Source: Photorhabdus thracensis
GTDB taxonomy: Bacteria > Pseudomonadota > Gammaproteobacteria > Enterobacterales > Enterobacteriaceae
Length of the DNA stretch: 64,000 nucleotides
Assembly: GCF_001010285.1 (NCBI RefSeq)
Contig: NZ_CP011104.1
Span: forward strand, 2,418,001-2,482,000
Direction of reading: 5' to 3'
Part shown: positions 2,661 through 46,047 of the stretch, one piece after another
Layout: the number at the start of each line of letters is the position of its first letter
How positions within the stretch are numbered: position 1 is the stretch's first letter
Notes under the pieces: model-generated
What the model saw: only the letters and a program-made list of their open reading frames with translations
Told to the model about the DNA's origin: nothing
Database searches by the model: none
Made by a program: the position numbers and the translations under genes

Positions 2661-2978
2661 ATGTTTGAACTTTTGTATCATCCGGAAGCTGCTGAGGAAG
2701 TAGAAGACTTACCGGGTGCGCTTCGGGGTAAGATGGCAAGATTACTGGACCAGTTAGAGCAACGTGGCAACGGGCTACGCTACCCGTTAACAAGACCCGT
2801 TCGGGATAGTTTATTTGAATTACGGGCTTCGGGTTCAGACATCGCGAGGACGCTATTTGTGTTCCAAAAGGGGAAGCGGATTTACATCTTACGATGCTTT
2901 GTGAAAAAAGGAGATAAAACTCCACCACCTGAAATAGAGTTAGCGCTGAAACGACTGGAGGATATGACACATGGCTAA
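2661..2978 (+). CDS. HigB/RelE-type toxin (phage-derived Gp49-like family)
   Basis: This 105-residue protein starts at an ATG behind a perfect AAGGAGG site. It has the RelE/HigB-type fold signature: FELLYHPEAAEEVEDLP at the N-terminus, PVRDSLFELRASG in the middle, and RTLFVFQKGKRIYILRCFVKKGDKTPPPEIELALKR at the end, the usual pattern of Gp49/HigB-like mRNA interferases, written here in overlapping short motifs. Members cleave mRNA at the ribosome. It overlaps the downstream antitoxin gene by 8 bp, so the two are translationally coupled, with toxin first as in higBA systems. Function is assigned from family and gene order only. Confidence 0.85.
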   Translation: MFELLYHPEAAEEVEDLPGALRGKMARLLDQLEQRGNGLRYPLTRPVRDSLFELRASGSDIARTLFVFQKGKRIYILRCFVKKGDKTPPPEIELALKRLEDMTHG

Positions 2979-3258
2979 AGTAACTCCTATCTCACATTCG
3001 GAAGTGAGAAAACGTCTTCTTAATACACCGGAAGCTCTGCAAGCCTATGCTGAGGCCACAGAAGAATATGAGTTGCTAGAACAGCTCACTGAATGGCGGG
3101 AAAAGGCAGGTCTAAAAAAAGTAGATGTGGCTAAACGGATGGGAATTAACCCGTCCGCAGTTACCCGGATTGAGAAGAATGTAACGAGAGCTAGCTGGCA
3201 CACACTTAAACGTTATGCTGCTGCATGCGGAGTTGAATTATCTTTGACTACGAAATAA
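2971..3258 (+). CDS. HigA-type antitoxin, XRE-family HTH protein
   Basis: This 95-residue protein has a helix-turn-helix of the Cro/CI (XRE) type at about residues 45-75 (KKVDVAKRMGINPSAVTRIE). Its N-terminal extension would contact the toxin. In such pairs this protein neutralises the toxin and represses the operon. The ATG lies within the last codons of the toxin gene. A strong hairpin follows 60 bp after the stop. The partner identity follows from the overlap and order, not from a recognised orthologue. Confidence 0.87.
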   Translation: MAKVTPISHSEVRKRLLNTPEALQAYAEATEEYELLEQLTEWREKAGLKKVDVAKRMGINPSAVTRIEKNVTRASWHTLKRYAAACGVELSLTTK

Positions 3259-3320
3259 TGTTGTAAAATGCGTGTCCTGTTGGTGATAACAGGCAGAGGC
3301 ACACTTATCTGGTATGCCCT

Positions 3321-3352
3321 AAAATGGCTTCCAATTAAGGAAGCCATTTTTC
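3321..3352. terminator. Bidirectional rho-independent terminator
   Basis: The stem AAAATGGCTTCC / GGAAGCCATTTT with an AATTAA loop has T-runs on both strands. It sits between the convergent higA-like gene and the CarS-like gene, so it can end both transcripts. Confidence 0.85.
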
Positions 3353-3366
3353 TGCGGTATTCCCAC

Positions 3367-3909
3367 CTAGAATCTCGTTTTTTTCAGCGAAAGTAAAAAC
3401 AACATATTTTTAACGATAAAAGCGCTGATTAAAAACCAGAGGAAAATGAAAAACGCATCAATATAAGTAAGATTAAGGCAAATGAGATAGGCCATTGTAA
3501 TACCAATAGCAGAATCGAGCTGATCGAATAAAATAAACAGCTGCTTATTTTGCTTCGGATGTTGTCCCGGTGGTGCGCCAAGTCTCCTTTTCAACCAGGA
3601 GTTTGGCAATTCGAAAAGAACGTAACCTAAACCCGCCAGGAACCCGGTAAATAAGCAGGATCCAATCGTCCGTGGAATAATGGTGTCCTGTGTTTCGGTA
3701 CAGAGTATTAACCATAGCGGTGAAAATAGCGCGGTAATAATGGGTACAGCGATAAAACCACGCCAGGTCTTGTTGTAACCAAAATAGCGTTGGTGTACCG
3801 GGATAGCCCAGCAGGAAAAATAGTTTTTCGTAACAATCACCATGTGTAAACAACCACCAAGGATAACGGGGATAAGTAAAATCCCCGCGTGATAAAAACT
3901 ATTGAACAT
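3367..3909 (-). CDS. CarS-like (CDP-archaeol synthase family) membrane protein
   Basis: This is a 180-residue polytopic membrane protein. I start it at the ATG at 3909, which has GGAG five bases upstream and overlaps the preceding gene by 11 bp; the longer frame would overlap by 134 bp. Motifs match the CDP-archaeol synthase (CarS, DUF46) family: NKTWRGF at residues 46-52, ELPNSWLKRRLG at 100-111, DQLDS at 129-133, with hydrophobic segments around them. CarS activates an unsaturated archaeal phospholipid precursor with CTP; bacterial relatives exist with unknown substrates. The next gene upstream is a CDP-alcohol phosphatidyltransferase, which would use exactly such a CDP-activated product. 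That pairing is strong context, but the substrate is unknown. Confidence 0.72.
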   Translation of the reverse strand: MFNSFYHAGILLIPVILGGCLHMVIVTKNYFSCWAIPVHQRYFGYNKTWRGFIAVPIITALFSPLWLILCTETQDTIIPRTIGSCLFTGFLAGLGYVLFELPNSWLKRRLGAPPGQHPKQNKQLFILFDQLDSAIGITMAYLICLNLTYIDAFFIFLWFLISAFIVKNMLFLLSLKKTRF

Positions 3910-4522
3910 AGAGACTCCAGAAATGAAGACCTGTAAATAAAACAAACCCTGCAAGTGTTGTACTGACGATAGTACTGAGATGTTTGAATTTATAAAATGG
4001 GCGATCCCATAACATAGCGATACTGAATGCAAGAAGCGCTAATGTCAGTAAAAGATGGGTCAGCCCCGGCGTTGCCACCAAACCTACCAAAGCGTAACCA
4101 CTGACAATAAATAAGCTCCAGAATACGGGCATACCAAGATAGGAAAGCCGATCTTCATCCTGAATATTTCCGACTTCATTAAATACCGATAATCGCAGAC
4201 AACCGCTGATTATCATTAAGATAATAAACAGCGAATACCAGGATTGATAACCGGAAAGGTATAGGATGATGGATGGTGAGATCAGGTAAATAAGTTGATC
4301 CATAAATCCATCAAGATAACGGCCAAAAGGGCGGACAATATTTAAGTTCCTGGCCAGAATACCATCGAGCGCGTCGCCAAGCATGGCAAGATACAAGAAC
4401 GCAATGGCCAGATAATACCAATGCTGTAATGCGGCTGCTACGGAGAGCGCGCTAAATACCGCTCCGCCAATAGTGATATAGTCCGCTCTGTTTAGCTGGA
4501 TGATGAAATGGTTACTGTTCAT
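3899..4522 (-). CDS. CDP-alcohol phosphatidyltransferase family protein
   Basis: A 207-residue integral membrane protein with the full CDP-alcohol phosphotransferase signature: D50, D53-G54, A57-R58, G67, D71 and D75, matching DxxDGxxARx8Gx3Dx3D. These Asp residues bind the metal pair and act in displacing CMP from a CDP-linked donor by an alcohol acceptor. Several hydrophobic segments flank the motif. Its start overlaps the end of the upstream ligase gene by four bases (ATGA), so the two are translationally coupled. It is distinct from the housekeeping PgsA or PssA by context. The acceptor alcohol cannot be read from the sequence. Confidence 0.88.
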   Translation of the reverse strand: MNSNHFIIQLNRADYITIGGAVFSALSVAAALQHWYYLAIAFLYLAMLGDALDGILARNLNIVRPFGRYLDGFMDQLIYLISPSIILYLSGYQSWYSLFIILMIISGCLRLSVFNEVGNIQDEDRLSYLGMPVFWSLFIVSGYALVGLVATPGLTHLLLTLALLAFSIAMLWDRPFYKFKHLSTIVSTTLAGFVLFTGLHFWSLYVQ

Positions 4523-6093
4523 AATTTCTCCTTGTATGGAAAGGAGGATAATTGGCCTTTCCTGAGCATATTTATCAGTGCTATGCGGTTTATTTTGCTG
4601 TTATGGCGAATGTCGACGGGAATAGGATTGGCATAATAAATCCGGGTGACCAGAGTGAGATCCCGTTCGTCTAAAATGGCGGATAAACCTGTCGGCAGGG
4701 TGGTACTTTCCAATATCAGCGCGGCTCCACCCAAAGGATGCAACACGAATGCGCTCCGTGCGACGTTTGACAGTTCATTGATCCTTTTTTCCACCATATA
4801 GGGATGGATAATGCGCCCATCATCTAACTGCACTTTGTCTTTTACCCGTCCAAGCAACCAGAGCTGTCCTGTGGTATCCAGGCAGCCAACATCACCAGTA
4901 CAGTGCCAGATCCCTCCCTGTTTACGCGGGAGTTTGTTTTCTTTCGTTGCTTGAGGATTATCAATATAGTCTTTGAGCACATGAGGCCCGGCAACCAGAA
5001 TTTCACCGATATCACCGGTAGACAGTGGGGTAATTTGCTGGGGATCAGCGGTTATCTCTCTGATACATATTTCCGCTTGTGAGACGGGTTTCCCAACCAG
5101 ATAACCATCATGTGTTGCCCAGTGATTTAATTGCGTTGTCATTTCGACCGTACTGATCGGTTCGACCTCGGTAGAGCCATAGACCACCAGACGCAGAGCA
5201 TGTGGGAAGACTGCCTGGCAGTTTTCAAGCAGTTCCTTATTGGCAGGCGCGCCGCCCACGATGACAGTGCGCACATTAGGGAATGACAAGCTCTTGTTTC
5301 TGGCGTAATCAGTGACTTTGCTCATATAGGCGGGTGCACCGCTGAGGCAGGTGATGCCCTTATCTTGCAATTGCCCGACGATTTTTTGCGCATCAACCGT
5401 TGCAGGATGGGCAAAGTCAAAATCAGGCAGAATACTGCTGTTGCCGCAGCACAATGAATGCAGCACCATGACGGGGAAACTGTGCAGGTCGATCTCGCTC
5501 TTTTCCCCGGGAAAAGTCGCTTTTATGGCATAAAGTTGTGCTAACAGGCTGTCATGTGTACGGTTTGCACCTTTAGGCATACCGGTAGAACCCGAGGTAA
5601 AAGTAATTAATCCCGTCGTATCCGGTGGTAAGTCCCGGCAGATAAAGTTATTCATTGATGAATGTTGGCTGGGTGCTTTCAGTACTTTCATGCCCCAGAT
5701 AGGCTGTTCGATGACAAAACGGCGCAGTCGCCACAGTTCGGGGATCAGAAACCAGAATTTTCCTAACGCAGGTTGGGTGATAACCGCCGATAATTTACTA
5801 TGCCGTAGCGTCTCTCGGAGTTGTTTTCTGGAAAGTCCCCGCTCAAGCATAACCGGAACCAGCCCCAATCCCAGAATGGCGATAAGCAATGGGTAAAGTA
5901 CTAAGCCTGGCTGAACGATCACTAACAAGCGATCGCCGGCCACGAACCCGGCTTGGGTTAACAGATGCTGGAAGTGGGATGCATGAGAAAAAAATTCCCG
6001 AAAACTTAAACCACTGCCGTGTGGTGCTTGCAGGGCTAAATGCTCAGGGTGTTTTTGGGCCGCATCGACAATTGACTGACAAATATTTGTCAT
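4519..6093 (-). CDS. Adenylate-forming (ANL) ligase, OleC/acyl-CoA-synthetase-like
   Basis: A 524-residue ANL-superfamily enzyme. The ATP-binding loop TFTSGSTGMPKG is at residues 164-175, followed by a YGSTEVEPIS motif, CTGDVGCLD and GRVKDKVQLDDG of the hinge region, and the C-terminal catalytic Lys in HNSKINR. It would adenylate a carboxylic acid, then form a thioester, ester or beta-lactone. The internal pattern (FPVMVL... PDFDFAHP... SGAPAYM) is most like the OleC beta-lactone synthetase branch in my memory, though no other ole genes are present. It overlaps the GNAT gene upstream and the CDP-alcohol transferase downstream by four bases each. Substrate unknown. Confidence 0.85.
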   Translation of the reverse strand: MTNICQSIVDAAQKHPEHLALQAPHGSGLSFREFFSHASHFQHLLTQAGFVAGDRLLVIVQPGLVLYPLLIAILGLGLVPVMLERGLSRKQLRETLRHSKLSAVITQPALGKFWFLIPELWRLRRFVIEQPIWGMKVLKAPSQHSSMNNFICRDLPPDTTGLITFTSGSTGMPKGANRTHDSLLAQLYAIKATFPGEKSEIDLHSFPVMVLHSLCCGNSSILPDFDFAHPATVDAQKIVGQLQDKGITCLSGAPAYMSKVTDYARNKSLSFPNVRTVIVGGAPANKELLENCQAVFPHALRLVVYGSTEVEPISTVEMTTQLNHWATHDGYLVGKPVSQAEICIREITADPQQITPLSTGDIGEILVAGPHVLKDYIDNPQATKENKLPRKQGGIWHCTGDVGCLDTTGQLWLLGRVKDKVQLDDGRIIHPYMVEKRINELSNVARSAFVLHPLGGAALILESTTLPTGLSAILDERDLTLVTRIYYANPIPVDIRHNSKINRIALINMLRKGQLSSFPYKEKL

Positions 6094-7145
6094 GCGAGCC
6101 TCCTGTAATAAAGCGCATATTGGTGTCTGGTGGCAGCGGATGTATTGAAAAGCCGTTCTGCGGTCTTTAATGATTTATTATCTTCACGCATCAGGGCACC
6201 CCCCAGGTAGGGATGAATGCGGCTGGCACTTTGCTGATATGAGTGATATAGCGCGTGATATAGCCGACTTCCCCGGTATTGCGGCGCAACTGCTACGGTT
6301 TTCAACAAGCCTATAGCGGGCTGACCTTTTTGGCTCACGGATAAGCTAAGAATTAACCCGGCAATCTCACCACTGTCGGTTTTAGCCAGAAATGACGCAG
6401 GGTAGTGACAAAAAGGTTTAATAAACTCCTCACCGCAATACTGTTGAAATGTTGTCCATGACGGTGTGGTGTAAGCGAAATTCTCGCCGAAGACCGAATC
6501 GATAAAGGAATATAATCTAACCTGTTCCTGTATCCATAATTCCGGTGTTAGAGGCAGTAATGTCGCCTGAGCCTCAGGGAGCTTTTGCCCGCGCTGATAG
6601 TCCAGCCGAAAGTTGTTTGCTACTGCCTGAGTATCGTCGAATATTGAGGTGTAACGGTAACGAGTATCGAACCCTAATCCTTCTAATAATAGGGAGTAAT
6701 AAGGCGGGTTGTAAGGTTCATGCTCAAAGGGGGGGACATCAAAATGATCAAGCCGGACGCGGTAATGCCCGAAGGTCGAAAAGTTAATCGGCCCGTAGAG
6801 ATTGTGTGCGCCATTTTTCTTGGCCCATTGTTCCAGAGCGCCAAACAGCATGGTGTTGCTTGCCATATCATTATCGGTTTCCCAAAAACCGAAAAACGCG
6901 GCGGATTGACCATCAACGGCATGGGGCACTAAAAAACTGGCAAGACGGGTTTTCCCCGGAATACAGCCAATCCAGGCTTTGCTGTGATTAAACCAGGGAT
7001 TTTCCAGACTGAACTGTTGTTGTACCTTCTCCCGGTCTTCGCCAGGCCAGAGCGGCCAGTCACGGTAGATTGTTGCCGGAAGATCGAGAAAACTTTCAGG
7101 CAGTGGGTTGGCCGGGGACCATTCGCCCATGAAGATGTCAGACAT
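6090..7145 (-). CDS. GNAT-like acyltransferase (double-domain family)
   Basis: I place the start at the ATG at 7145 (MSDIFMGEW), which has AAGGAG six bases upstream and overlaps the dikinase gene by 8 bp. The 351-residue protein has an N-terminal region with FGFWE, LYGPINFSTFG and YNPPYYSLLLEGLGF, typical of a family of paired GNAT-fold proteins often found in biosynthetic clusters. The C-terminal half carries an acetyl-CoA-binding-like segment (VAVAPQYRGSRLYHALY). It may transfer an acyl group to an amine or hydroxyl, or be a degenerate acyl-binding protein. It lies in the middle of the translationally coupled operon. Confidence 0.75.
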   Translation of the reverse strand: MSDIFMGEWSPANPLPESFLDLPATIYRDWPLWPGEDREKVQQQFSLENPWFNHSKAWIGCIPGKTRLASFLVPHAVDGQSAAFFGFWETDNDMASNTMLFGALEQWAKKNGAHNLYGPINFSTFGHYRVRLDHFDVPPFEHEPYNPPYYSLLLEGLGFDTRYRYTSIFDDTQAVANNFRLDYQRGQKLPEAQATLLPLTPELWIQEQVRLYSFIDSVFGENFAYTTPSWTTFQQYCGEEFIKPFCHYPASFLAKTDSGEIAGLILSLSVSQKGQPAIGLLKTVAVAPQYRGSRLYHALYHSYQQSASRIHPYLGGALMREDNKSLKTAERLFNTSAATRHQYALYYRRLA

Positions 7146-9882
7146 GTTCGCTCCTTGCAGGTAATTCTTCTGTAGTGGTGTCGTGCAAGCGGATAACACT
7201 CCCGGTTGCACCATCCATACGTACCCGATCGCCATCTTTTAAAATTTGGGTGATCGCTGGAATGCCGACAATGGCGGGGATCCCCAGTTCACGAGCGACA
7301 ACGGCAGAATGCGAGAGGGTGGAACCGCGTTCGATCAATAACCCACCTGCGGTAGGGAATAGTGGCGCCCAACCGGGATCGGTACGGACGGTACAAAGGA
7401 TTTGCCCTGCCAATGACATCTCATCCTGTGGGTTTTTAATTAAGCGGATAGTCGTTTCAACTACCCCAGGATAACAGCCTATACCCTGTAGCATCCCGCT
7501 ATCGGTTGGCGTCTGTTGTTCCTGATAGGGATAGCTGTAATCTTGCTGTTGATACAGTGAGCCTCTGATGAAGAAGTGGTGAGCAGGCTCATCCTCTGTT
7601 TCGTAGCTGGCGTATTCTTGTTTGCGTATAGCGACTAAAGGCTTAAGCTGGGTTTGTACTGCTGTTCCTTCGTAACCGCTGTAGATTTCTTCTAATGTCA
7701 GATAGAAAATATCGCGGGGTTCTGCGAGGAGTCCTTCTAATGCATATGCCTGGCCGAGCTGTATGAAAATATCCCGGTATAGCCCAAACATACGGGTTCG
7801 GGTAAAGCGCATATTTTCCCGGTGGCGTATCGCCTGACGTAATTTACGCAGATTTCTTTTGAAGGCTTCCATACGCCTGGCACCAAGTTGCTCGCGTATT
7901 TGCTGAAATGCCGTGTTTTCAGCCTGAGTACGCAACTTTCTTTCCCGGCTGGACAGGGTTTCTGGCGTAAGGGTATCGATCGCAAGGTAGTTTTTTATTA
8001 TCAGAAATAGAAAACTGGGATCTTGTTTTAGCGTAATGGTTTCCAGCTTGAGCTCACCCATAGTGCGATCGCCATATTTTTCAATATAATCAATGCACTG
8101 CTGGTGGAAAGACGCATCAAGTTTGCGTACCTGAGTTAACAGGGTACGTGCATCGCCGTGTGTCAGCAGGGTGCATAATTCTGAATTCTGGCGTGCGTAC
8201 TGGCATATTTTCAACAACACTTTAGTCGGCTGGGTGCTTTCTATATCTTCATCGCCAGAGAGAAGATCGCCTAATAATGCGGACGAGTTTTCAATACCCG
8301 CAGCGGTCAGCCCCCGGTGTACCCGGCCATTGAACATCATCACGTAGAAGTCATTCAGGATAGGCGTTGTCCAGCGTTGTAGCAGATGTTCATCCAGATA
8401 TTTTAATTTCTCGATCAGTTGGCTGCTGTTGCAGGTGTGCAATTCAGTTCGTCTTATGGCGGCAGCATGTTGTTTAAACTGTTCTAAGAAGAGTTCTACC
8501 CGCTGATCCATCGTTCTGAAAGCATATAGCAAGCGCAGGAGTGCCCACCCCATTTTGGGAAGTTTCTTTATTTTATCGCCCAGTGAAGGCGTTTTATCTT
8601 CAATAAAATCAACCGGGTCTTCCAGCCCCATCATTCTTTCCATATCTTTTTTATTGGTTTGGAAAGAGGGCAGTAATAATAGCCCTTTGTACCAATTGTT
8701 GATGTTGTAATAGATTCTGCCTTTAATTAAACCGAGCATGTTTTCCAACATGGAACGATGCTGATTAACTTGTTTATCCGAACAACCTAAGGCACGTATT
8801 GTCTGTTCATAAACGGTGGCATAACCTGCGCGGGCAAAAGAGAAAGTCAGCGGCGTTGTTATTCCACAATAAGATTCCTGAATATTGGAATTATCGAAAA
8901 TAATATGGCGTTCGCTTTTATCATCCTGACGGGGCAACCGGGTAATTGGCCGGGTCTGTAGAATAAAGATTTGGTGGTTTTGAATTGTCCATTCAATATC
9001 TTGTGGACATCCCCGTGCCGCGGCGATTTTTTTGCCAATATCCCGTAATGCATAGATCTCGCTATCGGGTAAAGTCGGTTCCCACTGTTTTTCTTCCTCG
9101 ACGGGCATCGTTACCGTACCGCCGCCGCGGGTGGTATCGAAAACACTGGTTGTCCCTTTTTGCGTAATATGGCGTTCGATTTCAGGTGTGGTGAGATGAA
9201 CGGAAAATTCATCGGTATCACATTCGCCGGAAACCACACCTTCTCCTGTGCCCCAGGCGGATGAGATGAGGCAATGTTGTCTGCTGCCGGTCACTGGATG
9301 AGCAGTAAACATGACGCCAGAAACCTCACCGGCAACCATGTTCTGAATGATGACAGCGCTACGGATATTGCCCATCGGCAGCTGTTTGTGTAAACGATAT
9401 TGTAACGCGCGGGTATTAAAGGCTGAGGCCATCACGGCGCGTAAGCTGTGGGCAAGGGCGGATTTGCCACGTTGAAACAGATAGCTGTCCATCTGTCCTG
9501 CGAAGGAGGCGTTGGCTGCATCTTCACCAATAGCTGATGAGCGAACAGCAAAAAACGCATCCGGGTAATTCTCTGACAAGAGAGATAATTCTTCTTCTAA
9601 CTCAGCAGGCAACGGAATCGATTGTAGCCATTGGCGCAGAGGGGCGGCGATAGCGTCGAGTTTTTCCTGGCTAATATCATGTGGCACGGCGGCTAATTGT
9701 TCCACAATGTTAATCGCAAACGTATCGTTGATTAATAAATTGTTCAGCACCTCGCTGCTGATGACCCAATAATCAGGTACAGGGAAACCGTTTTGCGTAA
9801 GCCATAATAAATTAGCCGCTTTACCGCCTAAGGAATGTTCTGCTAATTCAATAGCGCTATCTTGAGTATAGAGATATTTCAT
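7138..9882 (-). CDS. PEP-synthase / rifampin-phosphotransferase-like dikinase
   Basis: I start it at the ATG at 9882 (MKYLYTQ), with GGTGG upstream; the TTG seven codons earlier lacks support. The 914-residue protein has an N-terminal ATP-grasp domain (SLGGKAANL, AVRSSAIGEDA, GVMFTAHPVTG, FILQTRPIT), a central domain of about 450 residues that is unlike PEP synthase, and a C-terminal swivelling phosphohistidine domain with STLSHSAVVARELGIPA (catalytic His at about 858). The order ATP-binding, substrate-binding, His domain matches rifampin phosphotransferases, in which ATP gives AMP, phosphate and a phosphorylated small molecule. Its central domain probably binds a cluster-specific alcohol. 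True PEP synthase is unlikely because the PEP/pyruvate TIM barrel is not apparent. Confidence 0.82.
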   Translation of the reverse strand: MKYLYTQDSAIELAEHSLGGKAANLLWLTQNGFPVPDYWVISSEVLNNLLINDTFAINIVEQLAAVPHDISQEKLDAIAAPLRQWLQSIPLPAELEEELSLLSENYPDAFFAVRSSAIGEDAANASFAGQMDSYLFQRGKSALAHSLRAVMASAFNTRALQYRLHKQLPMGNIRSAVIIQNMVAGEVSGVMFTAHPVTGSRQHCLISSAWGTGEGVVSGECDTDEFSVHLTTPEIERHITQKGTTSVFDTTRGGGTVTMPVEEEKQWEPTLPDSEIYALRDIGKKIAAARGCPQDIEWTIQNHQIFILQTRPITRLPRQDDKSERHIIFDNSNIQESYCGITTPLTFSFARAGYATVYEQTIRALGCSDKQVNQHRSMLENMLGLIKGRIYYNINNWYKGLLLLPSFQTNKKDMERMMGLEDPVDFIEDKTPSLGDKIKKLPKMGWALLRLLYAFRTMDQRVELFLEQFKQHAAAIRRTELHTCNSSQLIEKLKYLDEHLLQRWTTPILNDFYVMMFNGRVHRGLTAAGIENSSALLGDLLSGDEDIESTQPTKVLLKICQYARQNSELCTLLTHGDARTLLTQVRKLDASFHQQCIDYIEKYGDRTMGELKLETITLKQDPSFLFLIIKNYLAIDTLTPETLSSRERKLRTQAENTAFQQIREQLGARRMEAFKRNLRKLRQAIRHRENMRFTRTRMFGLYRDIFIQLGQAYALEGLLAEPRDIFYLTLEEIYSGYEGTAVQTQLKPLVAIRKQEYASYETEDEPAHHFFIRGSLYQQQDYSYPYQEQQTPTDSGMLQGIGCYPGVVETTIRLIKNPQDEMSLAGQILCTVRTDPGWAPLFPTAGGLLIERGSTLSHSAVVARELGIPAIVGIPAITQILKDGDRVRMDGATGSVIRLHDTTTEELPARSEHV

Positions 9883-10048
9883 GTTGTTCCACCAATGCAG
9901 CAATAGTACACCTTGCCTACATCATGGCCCTATCTGCGCGTAATAATATTGGCGTAGGTCAATCAATAAGACTCGAATGTATTACAAACTATTGCTGCAC
10001 CCTTTATTTTAGAGGAAGAGTCAGTTAAATAATTTATTTGAGTTACTA

Positions 10049-12571
10049 TTAGTTCCGCGTTAATGAAATAAGCCAGCGGATAGTTTTCATTGTGCGTTCC
10101 ATAAATGGATAGCCAACGACATTATGCGCCATCATATAAAGCGGTATTCTTCTCATCCATAAATCACGTAATGCGAGCTCATAGCCACGTTGCCAACTGA
10201 TTGGATCGAGAGAAATTCCCGATTTTTGTTCAAGTTCGACCCGGTGCAGTTCAATATAATAGGCCACACTGTCCGCATCGCTATGCTGGTCTAAACTAAA
10301 GGCCAGTAATTCAGCAAGGTCGCGCTGTGGCAGATGCAAAGTAGACAATTCCCAATCCCAGGCGCATAAACGCAATCCTTCTTCCTGTTGCCGGAAGGCA
10401 ATATTCCGTGGGTTGAAATCACCGTGGATCAACGTCCTGGGCATTTGTTCGATTTCTTGCCACCAAGTGGCGGCGTTATCTACCCAGTGCTGAAAGTCTT
10501 GTTGTTCTTCGGCGGTGAACAACTCAGGGAATGCCTGGTGAATAAAATTGCCTAGTTTTTGCCACAGGGGCTTCATTTGTGAAACTGTATCGGCGTCAGG
10601 AATTTGCAGTTGTGGGAATTTCCACATAAGCTCTCCTTCCCGCCCTAACCAGATGGAGTGAATATCGGCTACCCCTCTGATGGCGGTTTCAAGATGGTGC
10701 TGTTTCCACGGTGTTTCCAGGTTAATATTGTTCATTAGCACCATATCCTGGAGTAATTCTTCAATCAGGGCATAAGTTCCGGTTGACTCATTTTCAATCA
10801 CACCATAGATAACGGGGATATAGCGCATCAACTGTGGATTTTGCTGATTCATAATAGCCAGCTCACGGCTATGACTTTGGTGAAATTCAAGCTGGTGGGC
10901 AAAATCCTGGAAAACAGCAAATAATTCAGGGGAACAGTGCTTGGCAATATCCAGGACCATTTTAACGATCTCACTCCCCAAAGGTTTCAGTTTCAGCATC
11001 ACTGGCAGAGTACGTTGTGCGGATGTCGTCATCGCAAAGGGAAATAAACCAATTAAACGTTCCGCATAATTCGAACTCAGATGTGTCAGCAGGCTGTGCT
11101 CATCATTGCCAGAAAATTCAGGTTTGATCGTGGTCAGGTGAGTTCCCTGTAACACAGGATTAAAGTTTGCTTGCTGGAAAAATGATAGATCAAGCTCCTG
11201 TAGGGTGCGCGGAATAATACCGCTAGTGTGCGGTGGGCGGTTGCGGCCAAGTCTTTCATGTGATTGAGCAAACTCATCCGCCGCAATCGCTGACAGTGTT
11301 GAAATATCAAGAGCCAGGCAATAACTGGCGATGATTTCAGCCAGGCGGGCAGTGCCGTTTTCATCGGTGCAGCCCAGCATGTTCAGACATTCACGTTGGT
11401 GTGGTAAATAGGTTCCGCCACCGACTGTTCCTACGATTAGCGAGGGCAGTGTGACACTGCAATAGACTCGGTTATCGGCAGTTAATGTCATGTGTAAATG
11501 TGCGACTGATGATTCATGCACACAGGCGATGTCTTGACCGAGCGCGGTAAACATACCGGCGATAACATTTGCTGCATTAATATTTACGCCGACCATCCCT
11601 GAGGCGATAGCCCCCTCGCAGATATGATGATAAGCCGTGACAAGTTGTTGCGGAGTGACTCTCAGGATTTGCTGGCAGGATTCAGCACTAAGATAAACCT
11701 CGGCGACGACACGTGTCCCACGTCCTTCAATAAACGTTTTATAAGAGACTTTTTTATCGCCGGAAGTATTACCATCTATCATAAAGTGGCGCAGTGGTAT
11801 AAACGCCATCTTGGCGAGTTGTTGTTGGATCCATTGGCATGCATACCAGGTGCAGACGGTAGTCATATTTTGGCCTGCTGCTGCTGCTGTATTGTAGATG
11901 AACTGCAAATGGACGCTGCGCCCAATGATTTGCGGTTTTATTTCCTGTAATCGTGCATGTTTGGAGTGGAGGCCAATTTCATGTCGTATTTCGCTGAGAT
12001 GCTCGTTAATCCAATCACTGAACATGACGCTGTGTGCTACGCTATGAAATTCAAAACGGGGGGCTCGTATCATGCGTTGGCCGAGCACACGGGTAGTAGT
12101 GCCGCCTGATTGCATAATGGCGAAGGAGCCACGGGATATCGATGCAATTAAAGCACCTTCTGTGGTGGCGAGTGGTGCATAATATACCCCTTGAGCGTAT
12201 TGTCCCTTTACCAAGAGAGGGCCAGCGATCCCCACAGGGATTTCTATTGAACCAATAAATCCCTCAATGGTTTTTGTTAGTTTCGTCGCATCCAGATGGG
12301 TAGCGGCTACGTGTTCCAGTGGATGCCCAGTATGTTTTGCCAGATAATCCAGGCGCTTTTGCCGGGCTTCCTCGGTATATGTATAGAGGTGGCGGCGGGG
12401 CAATAATTCTGCTTGGGTTGCTTCTGTGCGGACGGCAGATGCTTCTTGGTGTTTAATGCTGAATATGTCACGTGATAATTCGAGAATAGAATCTCGCGCA
12501 CAGTTTTTTATGTGAGCAGTGGTATTATCTGAGACATCAAATACGCATGATTGGATTTCTTTTTGCAACAT
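10049..12571 (-). CDS. HMG-CoA reductase (class I-like) fused to an APH-type kinase domain
   Basis: The start is the ATG at 12571 with an AAGGAAAT site, 20 bp after the prenyltransferase stop; 840 residues. Residues 50-450 are an HMG-CoA reductase of class I/archaeal type: ATTEGA (Glu138), SGDKK (Lys273), GQD (Asp347), GTVGGGTYLP, and SHERLGRNR (His438), so all four catalytic residues are present. The C-terminal 300 residues are an aminoglycoside-phosphotransferase/choline-kinase-like domain with HGDFNPRN (Asp718) and the metal-binding Asp in WDWE (739). The reductase would make mevalonate or an analogue; the fused kinase may phosphorylate that or a later product. Enterobacteria make isoprenoids by the MEP route, so a mevalonate-forming enzyme is out of place. 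A gap of 166 bp separates it from the dikinase gene. Confidence 0.9.
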   Translation of the reverse strand: MLQKEIQSCVFDVSDNTTAHIKNCARDSILELSRDIFSIKHQEASAVRTEATQAELLPRRHLYTYTEEARQKRLDYLAKHTGHPLEHVAATHLDATKLTKTIEGFIGSIEIPVGIAGPLLVKGQYAQGVYYAPLATTEGALIASISRGSFAIMQSGGTTTRVLGQRMIRAPRFEFHSVAHSVMFSDWINEHLSEIRHEIGLHSKHARLQEIKPQIIGRSVHLQFIYNTAAAAGQNMTTVCTWYACQWIQQQLAKMAFIPLRHFMIDGNTSGDKKVSYKTFIEGRGTRVVAEVYLSAESCQQILRVTPQQLVTAYHHICEGAIASGMVGVNINAANVIAGMFTALGQDIACVHESSVAHLHMTLTADNRVYCSVTLPSLIVGTVGGGTYLPHQRECLNMLGCTDENGTARLAEIIASYCLALDISTLSAIAADEFAQSHERLGRNRPPHTSGIIPRTLQELDLSFFQQANFNPVLQGTHLTTIKPEFSGNDEHSLLTHLSSNYAERLIGLFPFAMTTSAQRTLPVMLKLKPLGSEIVKMVLDIAKHCSPELFAVFQDFAHQLEFHQSHSRELAIMNQQNPQLMRYIPVIYGVIENESTGTYALIEELLQDMVLMNNINLETPWKQHHLETAIRGVADIHSIWLGREGELMWKFPQLQIPDADTVSQMKPLWQKLGNFIHQAFPELFTAEEQQDFQHWVDNAATWWQEIEQMPRTLIHGDFNPRNIAFRQQEEGLRLCAWDWELSTLHLPQRDLAELLAFSLDQHSDADSVAYYIELHRVELEQKSGISLDPISWQRGYELALRDLWMRRIPLYMMAHNVVGYPFMERTMKTIRWLISLTRN

Positions 12572-12591
12572 AACTCTATTTCCTTTAATAC

Positions 12592-13536
12592 CTAAGCAAA
12601 CCCAAGCTTTATTAAGATGCTGGCAGTGCAAACTGAGTAACCCAGTACCATAAATATTCCCACTACAGCCTCATCGCGTTTGCGATTCTGGATAGTGGGG
12701 CGATGAAGGAATTTGCCTAATTGCCATAGACATAATGCATAACAAACGACCAAGATAATTAACGCCCATAACGCTATACCATCAGTGGTGATATTGATTA
12801 GCCAAATCTGTAACGCCAACATTACGGTGAGTAATGATGCGATAATAGCGACGGCTATTTTTCTGCCGAAAATAGATGAATAAGTCGGTATTTCCAGACG
12901 CTCTTCATCCGGACCTTTACATTTGCGTGTAATTTCGAAACTGAATCCAGAGAAAAAGCACAATCCCATTAAAACCCATATTGGGAAAGTGAGTGCGACG
13001 TTAGGGCTGGCAATATTGCCCAACCACCAGATAATGAGTGGCATTACCAGCATATGGGAAATGGCGTACCAAGTGAGGTGTTGGTTTAACCATTCACTGA
13101 TAAAGAACTCTTTCCCCATAAGGCAAGTCCAGATAAAGACTAATAGCCAGGCAAAAGTGACCGAGCCAACGCCTCGATCTAAAAATAGGCTTCCACCCAA
13201 TTGCAATGCGATACAGCAGATACCGAGTACCCGTAGATTTTTCAGCGTAATAATACCGCGCTGTAAGATCCGCTGTGGGTGGTGTTCACAATCCAGTTGA
13301 TAATCCTTATGCTCATCGAATATCCGTAATAGTAAAAAATAGGAGAAGGCCATCAGGCAACCGAGCAGGATTTCCCATGACAAAACAGGCTTTTCCCCTA
13401 TTGAATAAAAAGCTACGGAATAGCTGATGATATAAAAAATAAAGAAAAGCGGTGCATTTTGTAGCGGGAAACGCTCATCCATCCATAGCTTTATCCTCTT
13501 ACCAATGAATTTTGAATAGATCTCTTGGCCTTCCAT
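12592..13536 (-). CDS. UbiA-family membrane prenyltransferase
   Basis: A 314-residue protein with about eight hydrophobic segments. The first Asp-rich motif is in RIFDEHKDYQLD followed by HPQRILQRGIIT, and the second polar motif lies in FEITRKCKGPDEE, then IPTYSSIFG. These are the two sites that hold the Mg-diphosphate of a prenyl donor in UbiA enzymes. Relatives attach prenyl chains to aromatic rings or, in archaea, to geranylgeranylglyceryl phosphate. It is the first gene of the seven-gene reverse-strand cluster and has AGGA upstream of the ATG. It is not UbiA of ubiquinone synthesis by sequence or context. Acceptor unknown. Confidence 0.85.
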   Translation of the reverse strand: MEGQEIYSKFIGKRIKLWMDERFPLQNAPLFFIFYIISYSVAFYSIGEKPVLSWEILLGCLMAFSYFLLLRIFDEHKDYQLDCEHHPQRILQRGIITLKNLRVLGICCIALQLGGSLFLDRGVGSVTFAWLLVFIWTCLMGKEFFISEWLNQHLTWYAISHMLVMPLIIWWLGNIASPNVALTFPIWVLMGLCFFSGFSFEITRKCKGPDEERLEIPTYSSIFGRKIAVAIIASLLTVMLALQIWLINITTDGIALWALIILVVCYALCLWQLGKFLHRPTIQNRKRDEAVVGIFMVLGYSVCTASILIKLGFA

Positions 13537-14136
13537 ACGTCATTCCTATTTATTGTATAAAGATTAAACTAATATACGTTTGTAACAATCCAATCCAAGG
13601 ATAATAAATCCAAAAGTAAATCTTAATAAAGTCTATACGTGCTTTTTAGCCGGTAGTCGTAAGAAATACGTGTCGACCAGCGCCATACGTTAAGCCAAAA
13701 ATTTGCAATCCGCTATAATCAGGATGTGTAAATTTAAATATCAGTATGCAACTTATGTTTACATTTTCTTTCATAACTGTATGTTTGTCTGATGTTTTTG
13801 ATTGAAAGGTAATGGGCCTTGATGTCATGTGTCGGTCCGATATAAATGACATCCACCCCGTTATCTACAGCAACTATGCTCCACATAAATAAGCTTTTTG
13901 TGGGGCAAGTCTGTTCTATATGAAATACTGGAATAAAGTAATAATAATTAACAATTGTAATTAACTTAATAGTGAGATGTTTTGATTTAGAGCAGTTTAT
14001 AGGCGGATATTACCTCAATAGTTGAAAGGTACAATTTACAACTGGTTCTGTATTGGATTCTTGATGTAGGATCGGCGAAATACCGATATATTCTGGTTGA
14101 ATAGCTATGCTACTTTATCAAGTAAGGAGTTTGAGC
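13537..14136. other. Intergenic region upstream of the prenyl/HMGR cluster
   Basis: About 600 bp without a credible gene. It must hold the promoter of the reverse-strand cluster, but I find only weak AT-rich -10-like candidates near 13550-13570. The right part borders the degenerate ubiT. In E. coli the ubiU/ubiV genes lie next to ubiT; no trace of them is recognisable here. Confidence 0.4.
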
Positions 14137-14204
14137 TGTGTTAGGAAAAATCCGCGATCTTAATTTGCGCTGGTTTACTACTGTCCGTGATAATCATTTA
14201 GCAA

Positions 14205-15565
14205 AAACCGCCGTAAACCCTTGCCCAGTGCGGGCGGGGATATAAGGCGAAAAGCCCAAAGGGCTTTAAGGCGGGCTACTGCGACGTATCCTGACTGAAT
14301 TGATATCTGCCGGTAAAACAGGCTAAAATGAATGCACTTTATCAATGAGTGTTGAATATGTTAAGAGCGACCAAAGTCCGCCTCTACCCCACACCCGAAC
14401 AGGCCGAGTATCTTAACGGCCAGTTCGGTGCGGTCCGTTTTGCGTACAACAAGGCGCTGTACATCAAAAAGCATACTTACAAACGTCACGGCGTAAGTTT
14501 AAATCCGCGCAAAGACCTCAAACCGTTACTGGCAGTCGCGAAGAAATCCCGCAAGTATGCCTGGCTCAAGACATATGACGCCATCGCGTTACAGCAGGCG
14601 GTGATCAATCTGCATACCGCATTTGATAATTTCTTCAATCCGAAGTTGCGCGCCCAATTTCCCACGTTCAAACGCAAACAGGGCAAGCAATCGAGCTATC
14701 ACTGTGTTGGGGTGAAAGTGCTGGAGGGTGCGGTGAAGCTCCCGAAATTGTCACCGATAAAAGCGCGCATACACCGAGAAATTGAAGGGGAAGTGAAGAG
14801 CATTACGCTGTCCCGAACCGCCACGGGAAAGTATTTCGCCGCTATCCTGTGTGACGATGGAAAAGATGCGCGGGAAAAGCCGGGCGTTATCACCCGCGTG
14901 ACCGGTTGCGATATGGGTTTGTCCCACTATCTTATTGAGTCGAACGGGGAGAAGGTCAATAACCCGCGTCACCTTATCAATGCCACCCGTAACCTGCGTC
15001 GAAAGCAGAAATCGCTGTCCCGCAAACAAAAGGGCAGTGCTAACCGCGGCAAGGCCCGATTACGTCTGGCGGCAGTCCATGAGCGGGTAGCCAATGCCCG
15101 CACCGATTTTCAACACAAACTCTCTCGGACAATGGTTGACGAAAACCAAGCGCTCATTGTTGAGACACTAAAATCGGCCAACATGATGAAGAATCACCGC
15201 ATTGCCCGCGCTATCGGGGATGCGGGCTGGCATGGTTTCATCAAGAAACTGGAATACAAAGCCGCAGCAGCGGGCGTCCATCTGGTCAAACTGGATCAGT
15301 GGTTCGCCAGTTCGAAAACCTGTCATTGTTGCGGTTACAAAATGCCGGAAATGCCGCTGCATAAGCGGATCTGGCAATGCCCTTTCTGCCGAGTCAAACA
15401 TGATCGCGATATCAATGCGGCGCTCAACATCCAGCGCAAGGGCATAACAGCATTACAGGCGGCGGGACTCGTCGTTTCTGCCCACGGAGGCCAGTGTAAA
15501 TCCGTCATAAAGACGGTTGCGGCCTGAGAAGTGGGAAGCCTCGCCGTTTTTTACGGTGGGGAGCA
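14205..15565 (+). mobile_element. TnpB-only IS200/IS605 (IS1341-type) element
   Basis: The element carries only the tnpB-type ORF and no tnpA transposase. Left-end hairpin candidates include AAAGCCC/GGGCTTT at 14252-14268; the right end has the imperfect hairpin CCGTTTTTTACGG at about 15546-15558. Both boundaries are approximate, deduced from where ubiT homology stops and resumes. No terminal inverted repeats or target duplication are expected for this family. Confidence 0.75.
14358..15527 (+). CDS. tnpB: TnpB, RNA-guided nuclease of IS200/IS605 type
   Basis: I choose the ATG at 14358 (MLRATKVRLYPTPEQ); 389 residues. The RuvC-type catalytic residues are in place: Asp185 in GCDMGLS, Glu269 in VETLKSAN, and Asp in DRDINAA (about 349-351). 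A zinc finger with CHCCG and CPFC pairs lies between the last two. The N-terminus has the usual OrfB helix-turn-helix-like segment. TnpB proteins use an omegaRNA from the 3' end of the element to cut DNA at the vacated donor site, and are the ancestors of Cas12. A guide RNA would overlap the gene end and right hairpin at about 15400-15590. The ORF looks intact. Confidence 0.9.
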   Translation: MLRATKVRLYPTPEQAEYLNGQFGAVRFAYNKALYIKKHTYKRHGVSLNPRKDLKPLLAVAKKSRKYAWLKTYDAIALQQAVINLHTAFDNFFNPKLRAQFPTFKRKQGKQSSYHCVGVKVLEGAVKLPKLSPIKARIHREIEGEVKSITLSRTATGKYFAAILCDDGKDAREKPGVITRVTGCDMGLSHYLIESNGEKVNNPRHLINATRNLRRKQKSLSRKQKGSANRGKARLRLAAVHERVANARTDFQHKLSRTMVDENQALIVETLKSANMMKNHRIARAIGDAGWHGFIKKLEYKAAAAGVHLVKLDQWFASSKTCHCCGYKMPEMPLHKRIWQCPFCRVKHDRDINAALNIQRKGITALQAAGLVVSAHGGQCKSVIKTVAA

Positions 15566-32472: not shown

Positions 32473-33622
32473 AATAAGATTTCATAATTGTGCTACACCC
32501 ATTTTTTGTCTTCCTGGCTTTTGCTGTGATGAAAACGATGCCAAAAAGGCATCAACATAATTCAGTAACTGCCACATAAATTGACAACAATGATTTCGCG
32601 TTATTGTCTCATGGAGCGATTGCCATAACCGTTCTATTTTATTTAGCCCCGGTAAATAGACCGGTAAAAACAACAGGGTAAATTTTGGATGTCGTGCCAG
32701 CCAGTCCTTTACCTTCTGACTTTTATGAATACAGTAGTTATCTAAGATTAATGTGAGGGTTTCCGCATGGGGATATTGATGATTCAGTTCATCTAACATT
32801 TTGATAAATAAATCAGAATTCTTTTTTATTCCTTTAACATAGGTGATTTGCTCTGTTTGGGCATTAAGGCAGCCCGCAAGGTAATGTTTTTCGTTTTTTC
32901 CCGGGGTGATAACCCGTTTTTGTTGTCCTTTGAAGCACCAGTCCGCGCCGATTTTCGGGTTTAAATCAATATCCACCTCATCTTCATAAAAAACGGGATG
33001 TTTTTCTGAAATGTTCGCTTTGGCTTCCGCGATCTTTGCCATTTTCTCATCGTATTCGGGATCAGGTTGTTTCACTGTGGGTGCCGCTCTACGCCAGACA
33101 ATCCCCACCTGAGCAAAGTAACGATAAAGGACATTTTGCGTCAGAGAGAGGTTGAGTAATTCATTGAGGGTATGAGTCATGAGTTCAAGGCTCCAGCGAG
33201 AGCGGAGATAGCCTAACTTTTGGGGGGATTGCTGTAATAAGAAAAGTAAGAGGTTATAGAGTGGGGAGAGATCCCAGACAACAGGTCGGCCAACGGGTAA
33301 ACTTTCGAGTCCTTCCAGCCCATATAATGTAAACCACTGAACCCAACGATTGACGGAAGAGCGTGCGGCATGAAGGGTCTTGGCGACATAAGTCACTGTC
33401 AATCCTTCATTGAGCATCAATAACGCCGTTAATCGACGGGAATAGTTCTTATCACGGGTTTTATGGATAAGTTTTCTCATTTTCTGGCATTCATCTTGAG
33501 GTATAGGTGCTATGATAGGCATCACTCAGTCCGTGTTGGGGTTTGGGATTTTTCGCAATTGATCAGATCGCAAAAATCGGACTGAGTTCCCTCCAAGTGA
33601 TCTATTATTTTGAAAAGTTATT
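32473..33622 (-). mobile_element. IS630-family element, copy 1
   Basis: A 1150-bp element bounded by terminal repeats AATAACTTTTCA and (inverse) AATAAGATTTCA and flanked by the TA dinucleotides usual for IS630/Tc1-mariner insertions. It is almost identical to the copy at 44898-46047, in the opposite orientation. Confidence 0.92.
32482..33522 (-). CDS. IS630-family transposase
   Basis: A 346-residue transposase. The N-terminal helix-turn-helix part reads NEGLTVTYVAKTLHAARSSVNRWV (shown here in part: VAKTLHAARSSVNRW) and the DDE core has YEDEVDIDLNP, LILDNYCIHKS and NKIERLWQ. Compared with the second copy, this one keeps an open frame but differs in the conserved stretch near the last acidic residue: VYLPGLNKIE instead of VYSPWLNKIE. 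Those changes (Ser to Leu, Trp to Gly) could reduce activity. Confidence 0.93.
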   Translation of the reverse strand: MPIIAPIPQDECQKMRKLIHKTRDKNYSRRLTALLMLNEGLTVTYVAKTLHAARSSVNRWVQWFTLYGLEGLESLPVGRPVVWDLSPLYNLLLFLLQQSPQKLGYLRSRWSLELMTHTLNELLNLSLTQNVLYRYFAQVGIVWRRAAPTVKQPDPEYDEKMAKIAEAKANISEKHPVFYEDEVDIDLNPKIGADWCFKGQQKRVITPGKNEKHYLAGCLNAQTEQITYVKGIKKNSDLFIKMLDELNHQYPHAETLTLILDNYCIHKSQKVKDWLARHPKFTLLFLPVYLPGLNKIERLWQSLHETITRNHCCQFMWQLLNYVDAFLASFSSQQKPGRQKMGVAQL

Positions 33623-44897: not shown

Positions 44898-46047
44898 AAT
44901 AACTTTTCAAAATAATAGATCACTTGGAGGGAACTCAGTCCGATTTTTGCGATCTGATCAATTGCGAAAAATCCCAAACCCCAACACGGACTGAGTGATG
45001 CCTATCATAGCACCTATACCTCAAGATGAATGCCAGAAAATGAGAAAACTTATCCATAAAACCCGTGATAAGAACTATTCCCGTCGATTAACGGCGTTAT
45101 TGATGCTCAATGAAGGATTGACAGTGACTTATGTCGCCAAGACCCTTCATGCCGCACGCTCTTCCGTCAATCGTTGGGTTCAGTGGTTTACATTATATGG
45201 GCTGGAAGGACTCGAAAGTTTACCCGTTGGCCGACCTGTTGTCTGGGATCTCTCCCCACTCTATAACCTCTTACTTTTCTTATTACAGCAATCCCCCCAA
45301 AAGTTAGGCTATCTCCGCTCTCGCTGAAGCCTTGAACTCATGACTCATACCCTCAATGAATTACTCAACCTCTCTCTGACGCAAAATGTCCTTTATCGTT
45401 ACTTTGCTCAGGTGGGGATTGTCTGGCGTAGAGCGGCACCCACAGTGAAACAACCTGATCCCGAATACGATGAGAAAATGGCAAAGATCGCGGAAGCCAA
45501 AGCGAACATTTCAGAAAAACATCCCGTTTTTTATGAAGATGAGGTGGATATTGATTTAAACCCGAAAATCGGCGCGGACTGGTGCTTCAAAGGACAACAA
45601 AAACGGGTTATCACCCCGGGAAAAAACGAAAAACATTACCTTGCGGGCTGCCTTAATGCCCAAACAGAGCAAATCACCTATGTTAAAGGAATAAAAAAGA
45701 ATTCTGATTTATTTATCAAAATGTTAGATGAACTGAATCATCAATATCCCCATGCGGAAACCCTCACATTAATCTTAGATAACTACTGTATTCATAAAAG
45801 TCAGAAGGTAAAGGACTGGCTGGCACGACATCCAAAATTTACCCTGTTGTTTTTACCGGTCTATTCACCGTGGCTAAATAAAATAGAACGGTTATGGCAA
45901 TCGCTCCATGAGACAATAACGCGAAATCATTGTTGTCAATTTATGTGGCAGTTACTGAATTATGTTGATGCCTTTTTGGCATCGTTTTCATCACAGCAAA
46001 AGCCAGGAAGACAAAAAATGGGTGTAGCACAATTATGAAATCTTATT
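44898..46047 (+). mobile_element. IS630-family element, copy 2
   Basis: A 1150-bp element with the same ends as copy 1 (AATAACTTTTCA and its inverse partner) and flanking TA (44896-44897 and 46048-46049). It separates the Ner-like gene from the CCCCCA repeat region. Confidence 0.92.
44998..46038 (+). pseudogene. IS630 transposase with an internal stop
   Basis: The frame matches copy 1, but a TGG has become TGA after LGYLRSR (at about 45325-45327), about residue 110 of 346. The following part restarts at an ATG (45340) in the same frame. The DDE core is intact and keeps VYSPWLNKIE. Full-length transposase cannot be made without read-through. Confidence 0.9.

Follow-up and report, generated by a model that had tools for sequence, protein, structure and literature searches.

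Bacteria that carry archaeal-type lipid enzymes have been described: Candidatus Cloacimonetes possess the synthases for geranylgeranylglyceryl phosphate (GGGP) and digeranylgeranylglyceryl phosphate (DGGGP), with no CarS detected, as far as the excerpted text of that report goes (PMC7852524). Here, we analyzed a 64-kb window (the whole stretch of 64,000 nucleotides) from a Photorhabdus thracensis genome that is assembled as one contig of 5.15 Mb and, within it, seven reverse-strand open reading frames (ORFs) that occupy positions 3367-13536. In the order of transcription, they encode a UbiA-superfamily membrane transferase (UbiA, 314 amino acids), an HMG-CoA reductase (HMGR)-like domain fused to a kinase (840), a dikinase-type phosphotransferase (914), a tandem-GNAT acyltransferase (351), an AMP-forming acyl ligase (524), a CDP-alcohol phosphatidyltransferase (CDP-OH-P, 207), and a CarS-like protein (180). 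We consider it probable that this operon makes a dedicated polar (amphiphilic) lipid. Three observations are new, namely, a swap of head-group modules between clusters, an altered HMGR pocket in all 52 domains compared, and an MMPL exporter as a frequent neighbor.

A preliminary description of the window had reported the same seven genes at the same places, and its domain calls for UbiA, HMGR plus kinase, the AMP-binding enzyme, CDP-OH-P, and the CarS-like protein hold with Pfam and NCBIfam profiles. Its statement that most of the genes overlap by 4-11 bp is right for four of the six junctions (overlaps of 8, 4, 4, and 11 bp) and wrong for UbiA/HMGR and HMGR/dikinase, which are separated by 20 and 166 bp, respectively. 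The dedicated polar lipid that it proposed gains support from co-occurrence across phyla, from the interchangeable head-group module, and from the frequent MMPL neighbors.

Recurrence of the cluster and its two head-group modules

A dikinase profile scan of one genome per species (84,980 species) gave 103 confirmed loci, the best 80 of which were analyzed. Since the scan rests on two short peptide patterns and on the best 80 of 103 loci, the resulting distribution is a lower bound. The loci come from Photorhabdus (12), Pseudomonadales, Marinobacter, Thalassolituus, Spirochaetes, Myxococcota, Hymenobacter, Pontibacter, Pedobacter, actinomycetes, and others, and related clusters are found in Gammaproteobacteria, Spirochaetes, Myxococcota, Bacteroidota, and one actinomycete. 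For the main count, we set aside the 12 loci from Photorhabdus and 19 that are shorter than 20 kb, which leaves 49; the 68 non-Photorhabdus loci of any length were tallied separately. The homologues are not scattered, which answers the co-occurrence search proposed in the preliminary description: UbiA, tandem GNAT, and AMP ligase are all present in 45/49 dikinase loci. Counted singly, with GNAT taken from a full-length profile and the kinase and HMGR domains scored apart, UbiA is present in 46/49, GNAT in 45/49, AMP ligase in 46/49, kinase in 43/49, HMGR in 27/49, and MMPL in 33/49; the corresponding figures for the 68 loci are 60, 54, 58, 58, 36, and 39.

Three of the four exceptions among the 49 are actinomycete loci (L089, L097, and L100) that lack UbiA, GNAT, and an over-threshold AMP ligase and that may represent another system, perhaps a separate natural-product system; the fourth, L061, lacks GNAT only. 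In the three actinomycete loci, which also have no head-group genes, the dikinase relative stands beside large AMP-binding proteins, a NAD_binding_4-type reductase, and a MacB/FtsX-type permease family. In a class-wide sample of 369 genomes from the class of the host, the dikinase profile (E ≤ 1e-200) found the enzyme in five, the window's own genome included. In the other four, UbiA and HMGR lie beside the dikinase in three, AMP ligase in two, and GNAT in two. Among the gammaproteobacterial relatives, L132 has dikinase and DUF3419 only, among the families searched, and the L130 contig is just 8 kb long. No tandem GNAT was found in the CarS-type gammaproteobacterial cluster L129, where a formyltransferase-like protein precedes a fusion of the AMP ligase with an alpha/beta hydrolase (4507-7778).

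The clusters differ in their head-group genes. DUF3419 corresponds to BtaA, a lipid head-group family whose members add a 3-amino-3-carboxypropyl group to lipids. CDP-OH-P plus CarS is encoded in 25 of the 49 loci and DUF3419 (PF11899) in 21; none encodes both, and three encode neither. The same exclusivity is seen over 85 loci with Photorhabdus included (CarS 45, DUF3419 26, both 0, none 13, with 10 of these 13 under 20 kb; L023 and L025, here and in the 52-row alignment below, are second copies of the L041 and L044 contigs) and in the four class-sample genomes (one, three, and zero). In the clusters of three relatives, PF11899 scores 242.5, 145, and 141.7 bits against a cut-off of 28.2. In a dikinase tree with midpoint rooting that was pruned of eleven untyped loci and retains 63 typed ones, head type requires 2 parsimony steps, compared with a mean of 20.5 in 200 label shuffles, and the CarS-type L129 groups with the DUF3419-type L130-L132 with a support of 1.0. 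CDP-OH-P plus CarS and DUF3419 are interchangeable head-group modules. As the expected target of either is a hydroxyl or phosphate of a lipid, we infer that the shared core makes a lipid carrying such a group.

Many loci place a protein of the MMPL/RND family directly upstream of UbiA; a second match, to the sterol-sensing domain, was obtained for the L030 representative (30.1 bits vs 22.3). A LolA-like family, whose representative matches PF17131, is found in 11/49 loci, as is another protein family whose representative has no Pfam match.

Within Photorhabdus, the cluster is well kept. Among the best 80 of 103 loci, the dikinase is closest to those of Photorhabdus khanii and P. tasmaniensis (97%), the seven proteins are 81-99% identical among the Photorhabdus loci compared, and homologues of all seven genes occur in unchanged order in 8/8 Photorhabdus regions. 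Limnobaculum (L029) has the Photorhabdus gene order with the UbiA and dikinase ORFs split; L030 and L031 have the functions in matching order with CDP-OH-P and CarS fused, and UbiA is again split in L030. In 13/13 Photorhabdus loci (the 12 of the profile scan plus L026), the cluster adjoins identical neighbors that we take to be yhbQ-like and yhbS-like, and presumed nrdG- and nrdD-like genes lie beside it in 12/13. Every one of the seven genes has a dN/dS of 0.049-0.157 (vs four species), and all seven are under purifying selection. Because the Photorhabdus proteins are 81-99% identical and the cluster recurs in distant phyla, it is more than a chance assembly.

These data also bear on whether the product is instead a secreted or lipid-linked secondary metabolite, that is, a small amphiphile with a signaling or antagonistic role rather than a membrane lipid. 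The patchy distribution (5/369) would suit such a compound, as would the kinship of the dikinase family with PigC/RedH and Rph. However, the fixed chromosomal place and strong purifying selection in Photorhabdus speak for something else, as do the three membrane lipid enzymes and the alternative module DUF3419, which we take to be a lipid head-group family, and a Pfam domain scan of the seven genes found no carrier protein, nonribosomal peptide synthetase, or polyketide synthase domain. We regard a secondary metabolite as rather unlikely.

The HMGR-like domain and its fused kinase

The fusion gene spans 10049-12571 on the reverse strand (best start ATG at 12571), with a class I HMGR-like domain at 11237-12403 (HMG-CoA_red, PF00368) and a C-terminal kinase domain of the APH/choline-kinase fold at 10049-11221 (APH/EcKL match). 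In human HMGR, the HMG site comprises Ser684, Asp690, Lys691, Lys692, Asp767, Glu559, Lys735, Asn755, Leu853, and His866, as given in the excerpted text of PMC7503714. We aligned 52 rows of cluster domains, one of them from L089. The catalytic Glu559, Lys691, Asp767, and His866 (human numbering) are conserved in 52/52 rows, and so are Arg590, Asp690, Lys692, and Asn755. Ser684 is retained in none and is replaced by Asp (22) or Glu (30) in a column anchored by the DKK motif; Lys735 is likewise retained in 0/52, in a column that lies beside a gap and depends on the local alignment; and His752 is Asn in 52/52. The Photorhabdus fusion accordingly has S684 changed to D, K735 lost, H752 changed to N, and the NADPH-site D653 changed to A, the last of these being shared by 16/52 rows, from Photorhabdus and Limnobaculum. 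The reference enzymes 6hr7 and 8ecg both carry Ser684, Lys735, and His752. The domains of L129-L131 have Glu at 684 and no Lys735 in 3/3, with His752 retained in 2/3. An acid at the carboxylate-binding place together with the loss of the adjacent lysine argues for a substrate other than HMG.

Could the domain nevertheless be a true HMG-CoA reductase, making mevalonate that the fused kinase turns into phosphomevalonate to feed an isoprenoid or a mevalonate-containing product? The conserved catalytic residues and the four further positions kept in 52/52 rows would fit, and the best solved-structure match is an HMG-CoA reductase (6hr7, E 7.7e-79). The three altered positions, however, argue for a different substrate, and the score of the Photorhabdus domain with NCBIfam TIGR00533 is 302.8 against a cut-off of 441.8. 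The metabolic setting speaks the same way: DXR is present in 12/13 tested genomes with a cluster HMGR (22/25 over all genomes searched), and HMG-CoA synthase (PF01154) is over the cut-off in 1/13, in G066, which has no DXR. Over all 25 genomes, PF01154 is over the cut-off in two, one of them exactly at the cut-off, with weaker matches in three, and TIGR00748 is over the cut-off in 0/18, with weaker matches in 10; FabH-type relatives also score with HMG-CoA synthase profiles in controls. The supply of HMG-CoA was judged from synthase profiles, and leucine breakdown could be another source of HMG-CoA. Taken together, mevalonate formation by the cluster is unlikely, and the best reading of the HMGR-like domain is that of a repurposed acyl-thioester reductase: the catalytic residues are kept, the pocket has changed, and the substrate would have changed with it.

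Stand-alone class-I-like HMGRs without the canonical pocket also occur outside the clusters, in L137 and L138 (Hymenobacter), L139 (HdN1), L140 (Moraxellaceae), L141 (Pseudomonadales), and L034 (8538-9797). All six have Glu, Ala, or Asp at 684 and Ser or Thr at 735, and the genomes of L137-L141 have DXR with PF01154 not over the cut-off. The stand-alone HMGRs of L032 and L033 retain Ser684 and have Ala at 735. These sequences suggest that orphan HMGRs of bacteria that use the methylerythritol phosphate pathway may have been repurposed more widely. A second HMGR of 429 amino acids, in which positions Ser684 and Lys735 are not conserved, is found in L035 (P. asymbiotica) and L036 (P. australis); in L035 it is part of an operon-like run (5465-11729) with a carboxyltransferase, a biotin carboxylase, a biotin carrier, and an MmgE/PrpD protein.

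The predicted model of the kinase domain (pLDDT 93.7), together with HxDxNxRN and DWE motifs that are invariant in 34 sequences, identifies it as a small-molecule hydroxyl kinase of the APH/choline-kinase fold. The closest sequence match is the ACAD11 kinase domain (E 6e-6, over ∼60 positions), and no ACAD11-type chain is among the 50 structural matches listed for the model. As the best structural matches, many of them small-molecule kinases, are tied in Z, no substrate was assigned from them. In 16/49 loci, the kinase occurs without an HMGR domain: 14 are Bacteroidota, one is L070, where the gene is truncated at the edge of the sequence, and one is L095, an actinomycete metagenome-assembled genome. 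The L095 kinase has, in place of HMGR, a thioester-reductase-like short-chain dehydrogenase/reductase (SDR) as its fusion partner. This fusion suggests that the N-terminal domain serves to reduce a thioester, and its layout is the one expected if the resulting alcohol is handed to the kinase.

The remaining enzymes and the flanking DNA

The UbiA gene (12592-13536, reverse strand) encodes a member of family PRK05951 (430 bits vs a cut-off of 239; Pfam PF01040) whose RxxDExKDxxxD and RK motifs are invariant in 25 sequences. In a profile search, its closest solved structure is DGGGP synthase (6m31, E 6e-8), followed by chlorophyll a synthase (7e-4). The CDP-OH-P enzyme (3899-4522, reverse strand; CDP-OH_P_transf), which resembles phosphatidylserine (PS) and archaetidylserine synthases, has the PS synthases 7pow (E 8.5e-12) and 7b1k (3e-11), presumably from M. 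jannaschii, as its closest solved structures. It scores 68.3 and 67.7 bits, each below the respective equivalog cut-off, and its motif DxxDGxxAR(x8)GxxxDxxxD is intact in all 14 aligned sequences. The predicted CTP:lipid-phosphate cytidylyltransferase (3367-3909, reverse strand, best start ATG at 3909) has a single solved-structure match, CDP-archaeol synthase 5guf (E 8.5e-4); it is over the Pfam PF01864 cut-off (28.2 vs 22) and under that of NCBIfam PRK04032 (34.6 vs 148). The profiles place it in the CarS superfamily and stop short of equivalence to CDP-archaeol synthase.

These three relationships raise the question of a true archaeal-type ether phospholipid, archaetidylserine-like and made by an imported archaeal pathway. 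The closest structures of UbiA, CarS, and CDP-OH-P (DGGGP synthase, CDP-archaeol synthase, and PS synthases) are what such a pathway would supply, but the AMP ligase, HMGR-kinase, dikinase, and GNAT play no part in it. The search for its backbone enzyme also speaks for another product. GGGP synthase (PF01884) is over the cut-off in 6/19 genomes, comprising 5/5 Bacteroidota, all DUF3419-type, and Photorhabdus; it is over the cut-off in 0/4 other DUF3419-type genomes and in 0/9 other CarS-type genomes, with three of the latter just below. The Photorhabdus match is weak (37 bits vs 23.9) and has a stop inside the matched stretch; this PcrB/GGGP-synthase-like ORF (L128 2173-2829, 34.5 bits; G000 C1:522696-523349) lies among ORFs that we take to be transposase-like. 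The lack of a convincing GGGP synthase in CarS-type genomes makes a full archaeal pathway unlikely, and from these profiles we judge an archaeal-type ether phospholipid quite unlikely and true archaeol an unlikely product, in line with the earlier remark that the product need not be archaeol. The earlier label of archaeal-lipid-like enzymes thus stands, as distant similarity, for UbiA, CarS, and CDP-OH-P and falls for HMGR as a maker of mevalonate, given the pocket, DXR, and HMG-CoA synthase data. A prenylated quinone or pigment is also conceivable on the grounds that UbiA superfamily enzymes are involved and that kinase and dikinase could together yield a prenyl diphosphate; however, no aromatic-precursor enzyme was found among the cluster genes scanned, a set that did not take in every neighbor, and head-group modules and CDP chemistry are ill suited to a quinone, so that we consider this highly improbable. 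The dedicated polar lipid remains our preferred reading.

The dikinase (7138-9882, reverse strand, best start ATG at 9882; PPDK_N plus the PEP-utilizers mobile domain) scores 1931 bits with NF004883 against a cut-off of 1063. It consists of an ATP-binding domain, a middle region, and a mobile His domain; only PF01326 and PF00391 are matched at E up to 0.1, and the phosphoenolpyruvate (PEP)-binding barrel, which we take to be PF02896 at the C-terminus, is not. Without this barrel, the enzyme has the layout of rifampin phosphotransferase/PigC, and the label PEP-synthase-like of the preliminary description holds in name only. Its best solved match is 5fbs (E 8.7e-79), presumably Listeria Rph. A rifampin phosphotransferase identity was rejected as well (359.9 vs an NCBIfam equivalog cut-off of 999). 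The GNAT protein (6090-7145, reverse strand, best start ATG at 7145) has a Pfam match of 19.2 bits, below the cut-off of 20.7, and the predicted model (pLDDT 93.7) shows two GNAT domains, which confirms, at the level of predicted structure, the double GNAT called earlier in this 351-residue protein. A kinship of the tandem GNAT with bacterial ceramide synthase was considered and dropped, as literature searches yielded no sequence for comparison. A PHROGs search returned nothing for the GNAT and CarS proteins. The AMP ligase (4519-6093, reverse strand; AMP-binding domain) exceeds the PRK09274 cut-off (535.7 vs 478). It had been described as OleC-like, and its RHNxKI-type C-terminal motif resembles that of OleC; with scores of 224.6 vs 900 and 201.1 vs 850 for the OleC equivalogs, it is a PRK09274 member and not OleC.

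Right behind the last stop codon lies a perfect 12-bp hairpin (3321-3350, reverse strand), read directly from the sequence, which may be a terminator; a terminator scan of the region did not report it. The noncoding region upstream of the operon (13537-14348), where a promoter is expected, has no convincing sigma-70 site, and 18 promoter-like sites were found in 2900-14400 compared with 20.8 in shuffles. In this strain, an ORF that we presume to encode a TnpB/OrfB-type transposase (14349-15527) separates the operon from the yhbS-like GNAT gene; it has no counterpart at that place in 12 other Photorhabdus loci. Two further transposase-like ORFs of the window, at 32482-33525 and 45340-46038, are nearly identical by eye, with one of them shortened at the start.

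A working model and its relation to known systems

In our working model, the exact step order of which is provisional, the AMP ligase would activate a carboxylic acid as a thioester, and the HMGR-fold domain, devoid of the residues that hold the HMG carboxylate, would reduce this acyl-thioester to an alcohol with NAD(P)H. The fused APH-fold kinase would phosphorylate the alcohol, and the dikinase would add or transfer a further phosphoryl group. UbiA, by its likeness to DGGGP synthase, may link a lipid acceptor to a prenyl or alkyl chain. Judging from their closest relatives, CarS would then convert the lipid phosphate to a CDP-lipid, and the PS-synthase-like enzyme would exchange CMP for an alcohol, probably serine; the tandem GNAT may N-acylate an amine of the backbone or head group. 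In other bacteria, the DUF3419/BtaA-like enzyme would replace the CarS/PS-synthase step by attaching an aminocarboxypropyl (homoserine-type) head group, and many of them add an MMPL exporter. A wider claim is possible but doubtful: the clusters may define an undescribed, multi-phylum lipid class in which a recruited HMGR-fold thioester reductase, kinase, and dikinase make, from a carboxylic acid, a lipid alcohol with one or perhaps two phosphates, an archaeal-type UbiA uses it for an ether- or C-linked tail, and the head is either phosphoserine (by way of CarS and the PS-synthase-like enzyme) or homoserine (by way of DUF3419).

Several points weigh against this model. UbiA (E 6e-8) and CarS (E 8.5e-4) match archaeal-type enzymes only at a distance. 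The 14 Bacteroidota loci with a kinase and no cluster HMGR mean that the thioester-reduction step is not universal, and no relative of the L095 SDR was found in Bacteroidota loci in a search that covered this reductase family. The L095 fusion is itself a single case, scoring 117.6 against an NCBIfam thioester-reductase cut-off of 213.35, with the Pfam NAD_binding_4 cut-off exceeded. Since DUF3419-type clusters also retain the kinase, the phosphate that it adds does not have to feed CarS. The canonical pocket is defined by two reference enzymes only (6hr7 and 8ecg); three HMGRs intended as mevalonate-pathway controls (L134-L136), probably of class II, did not pass the motif filter and are not part of the comparison. 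HMGRs beyond the clusters have altered pockets too, so that the alteration may be a feature of a larger set of orphan bacterial HMGRs. In two Bacteroidota with HMGR and no DXR, PF01154 gave no match; since the profile misses some Bacteroidota enzymes, the absence of HMG-CoA synthase is not proven. Finally, no MMPL protein of the cluster type was found in the four Photorhabdus genomes searched, where the single match is 18.8 bits.

If the model is true, an entire class of bacterial membrane lipids has been overlooked in Photorhabdus, Marinobacter, Hymenobacter, and similar genera, and the fold of the statin target would serve a second chemistry. It would also mean, with consequences for the lipid divide, that three archaeal-type membrane-lipid enzymes work in a bacterial context where the archaeal backbone enzyme is missing. 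The two head-group modules that nature offers would provide a clean genetic handle on the product of the shared core. As stated in the preliminary description, the combination appears undescribed: no publication on the cluster or its enzyme combination was found in open-access full text, and the excerpts of a lipocone paper (PMC12419801) and of a kinase-architecture paper (PMC1262709) share some terms with it and do not describe the system.

Set against known systems, UbiA, CarS, and CDP-OH-P are distantly related to the last three enzymes of the archaeal ether-phospholipid pathway, but the cluster adds an AMP ligase, HMGR-kinase, dikinase, and tandem GNAT, its CarS/CDP-OH-P pair is replaceable by DUF3419, and CarS-type genomes have no convincing GGGP synthase. 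Ca. Cloacimonetes are likewise bacteria with archaeal-type lipid enzymes, although, as far as the excerpted report shows, they combine GGGP and DGGGP synthases with no detected CarS (PMC7852524), whereas the Photorhabdus-type cluster has CarS and no convincing GGGP synthase. With Rph and PigC/RedH, the cluster dikinase shares the ATP-binding and mobile His domains and the lack of a matched PEP-binding barrel, but it belongs to NF004883 and falls short of both Rph (359.9 vs 999) and PigC (341.3 vs 1300). The ligase shares the AMP-forming ligase superfamily with the OleC beta-lactone synthetase, whereas the other six cluster genes include no OleA, OleB, or OleD family member. Class I HMG-CoA reductase and the cluster domain have the fold family and the catalytic tetrad in common, but the latter has two HMG-binding residues replaced and is fused to a kinase. 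Lastly, as in the BtaA betaine-lipid synthase system, the scanned clusters of three relatives encode PF11899 over the cut-off; DUF3419 is not beside the Photorhabdus operon, whereas elsewhere it sits with UbiA, dikinase, and GNAT.

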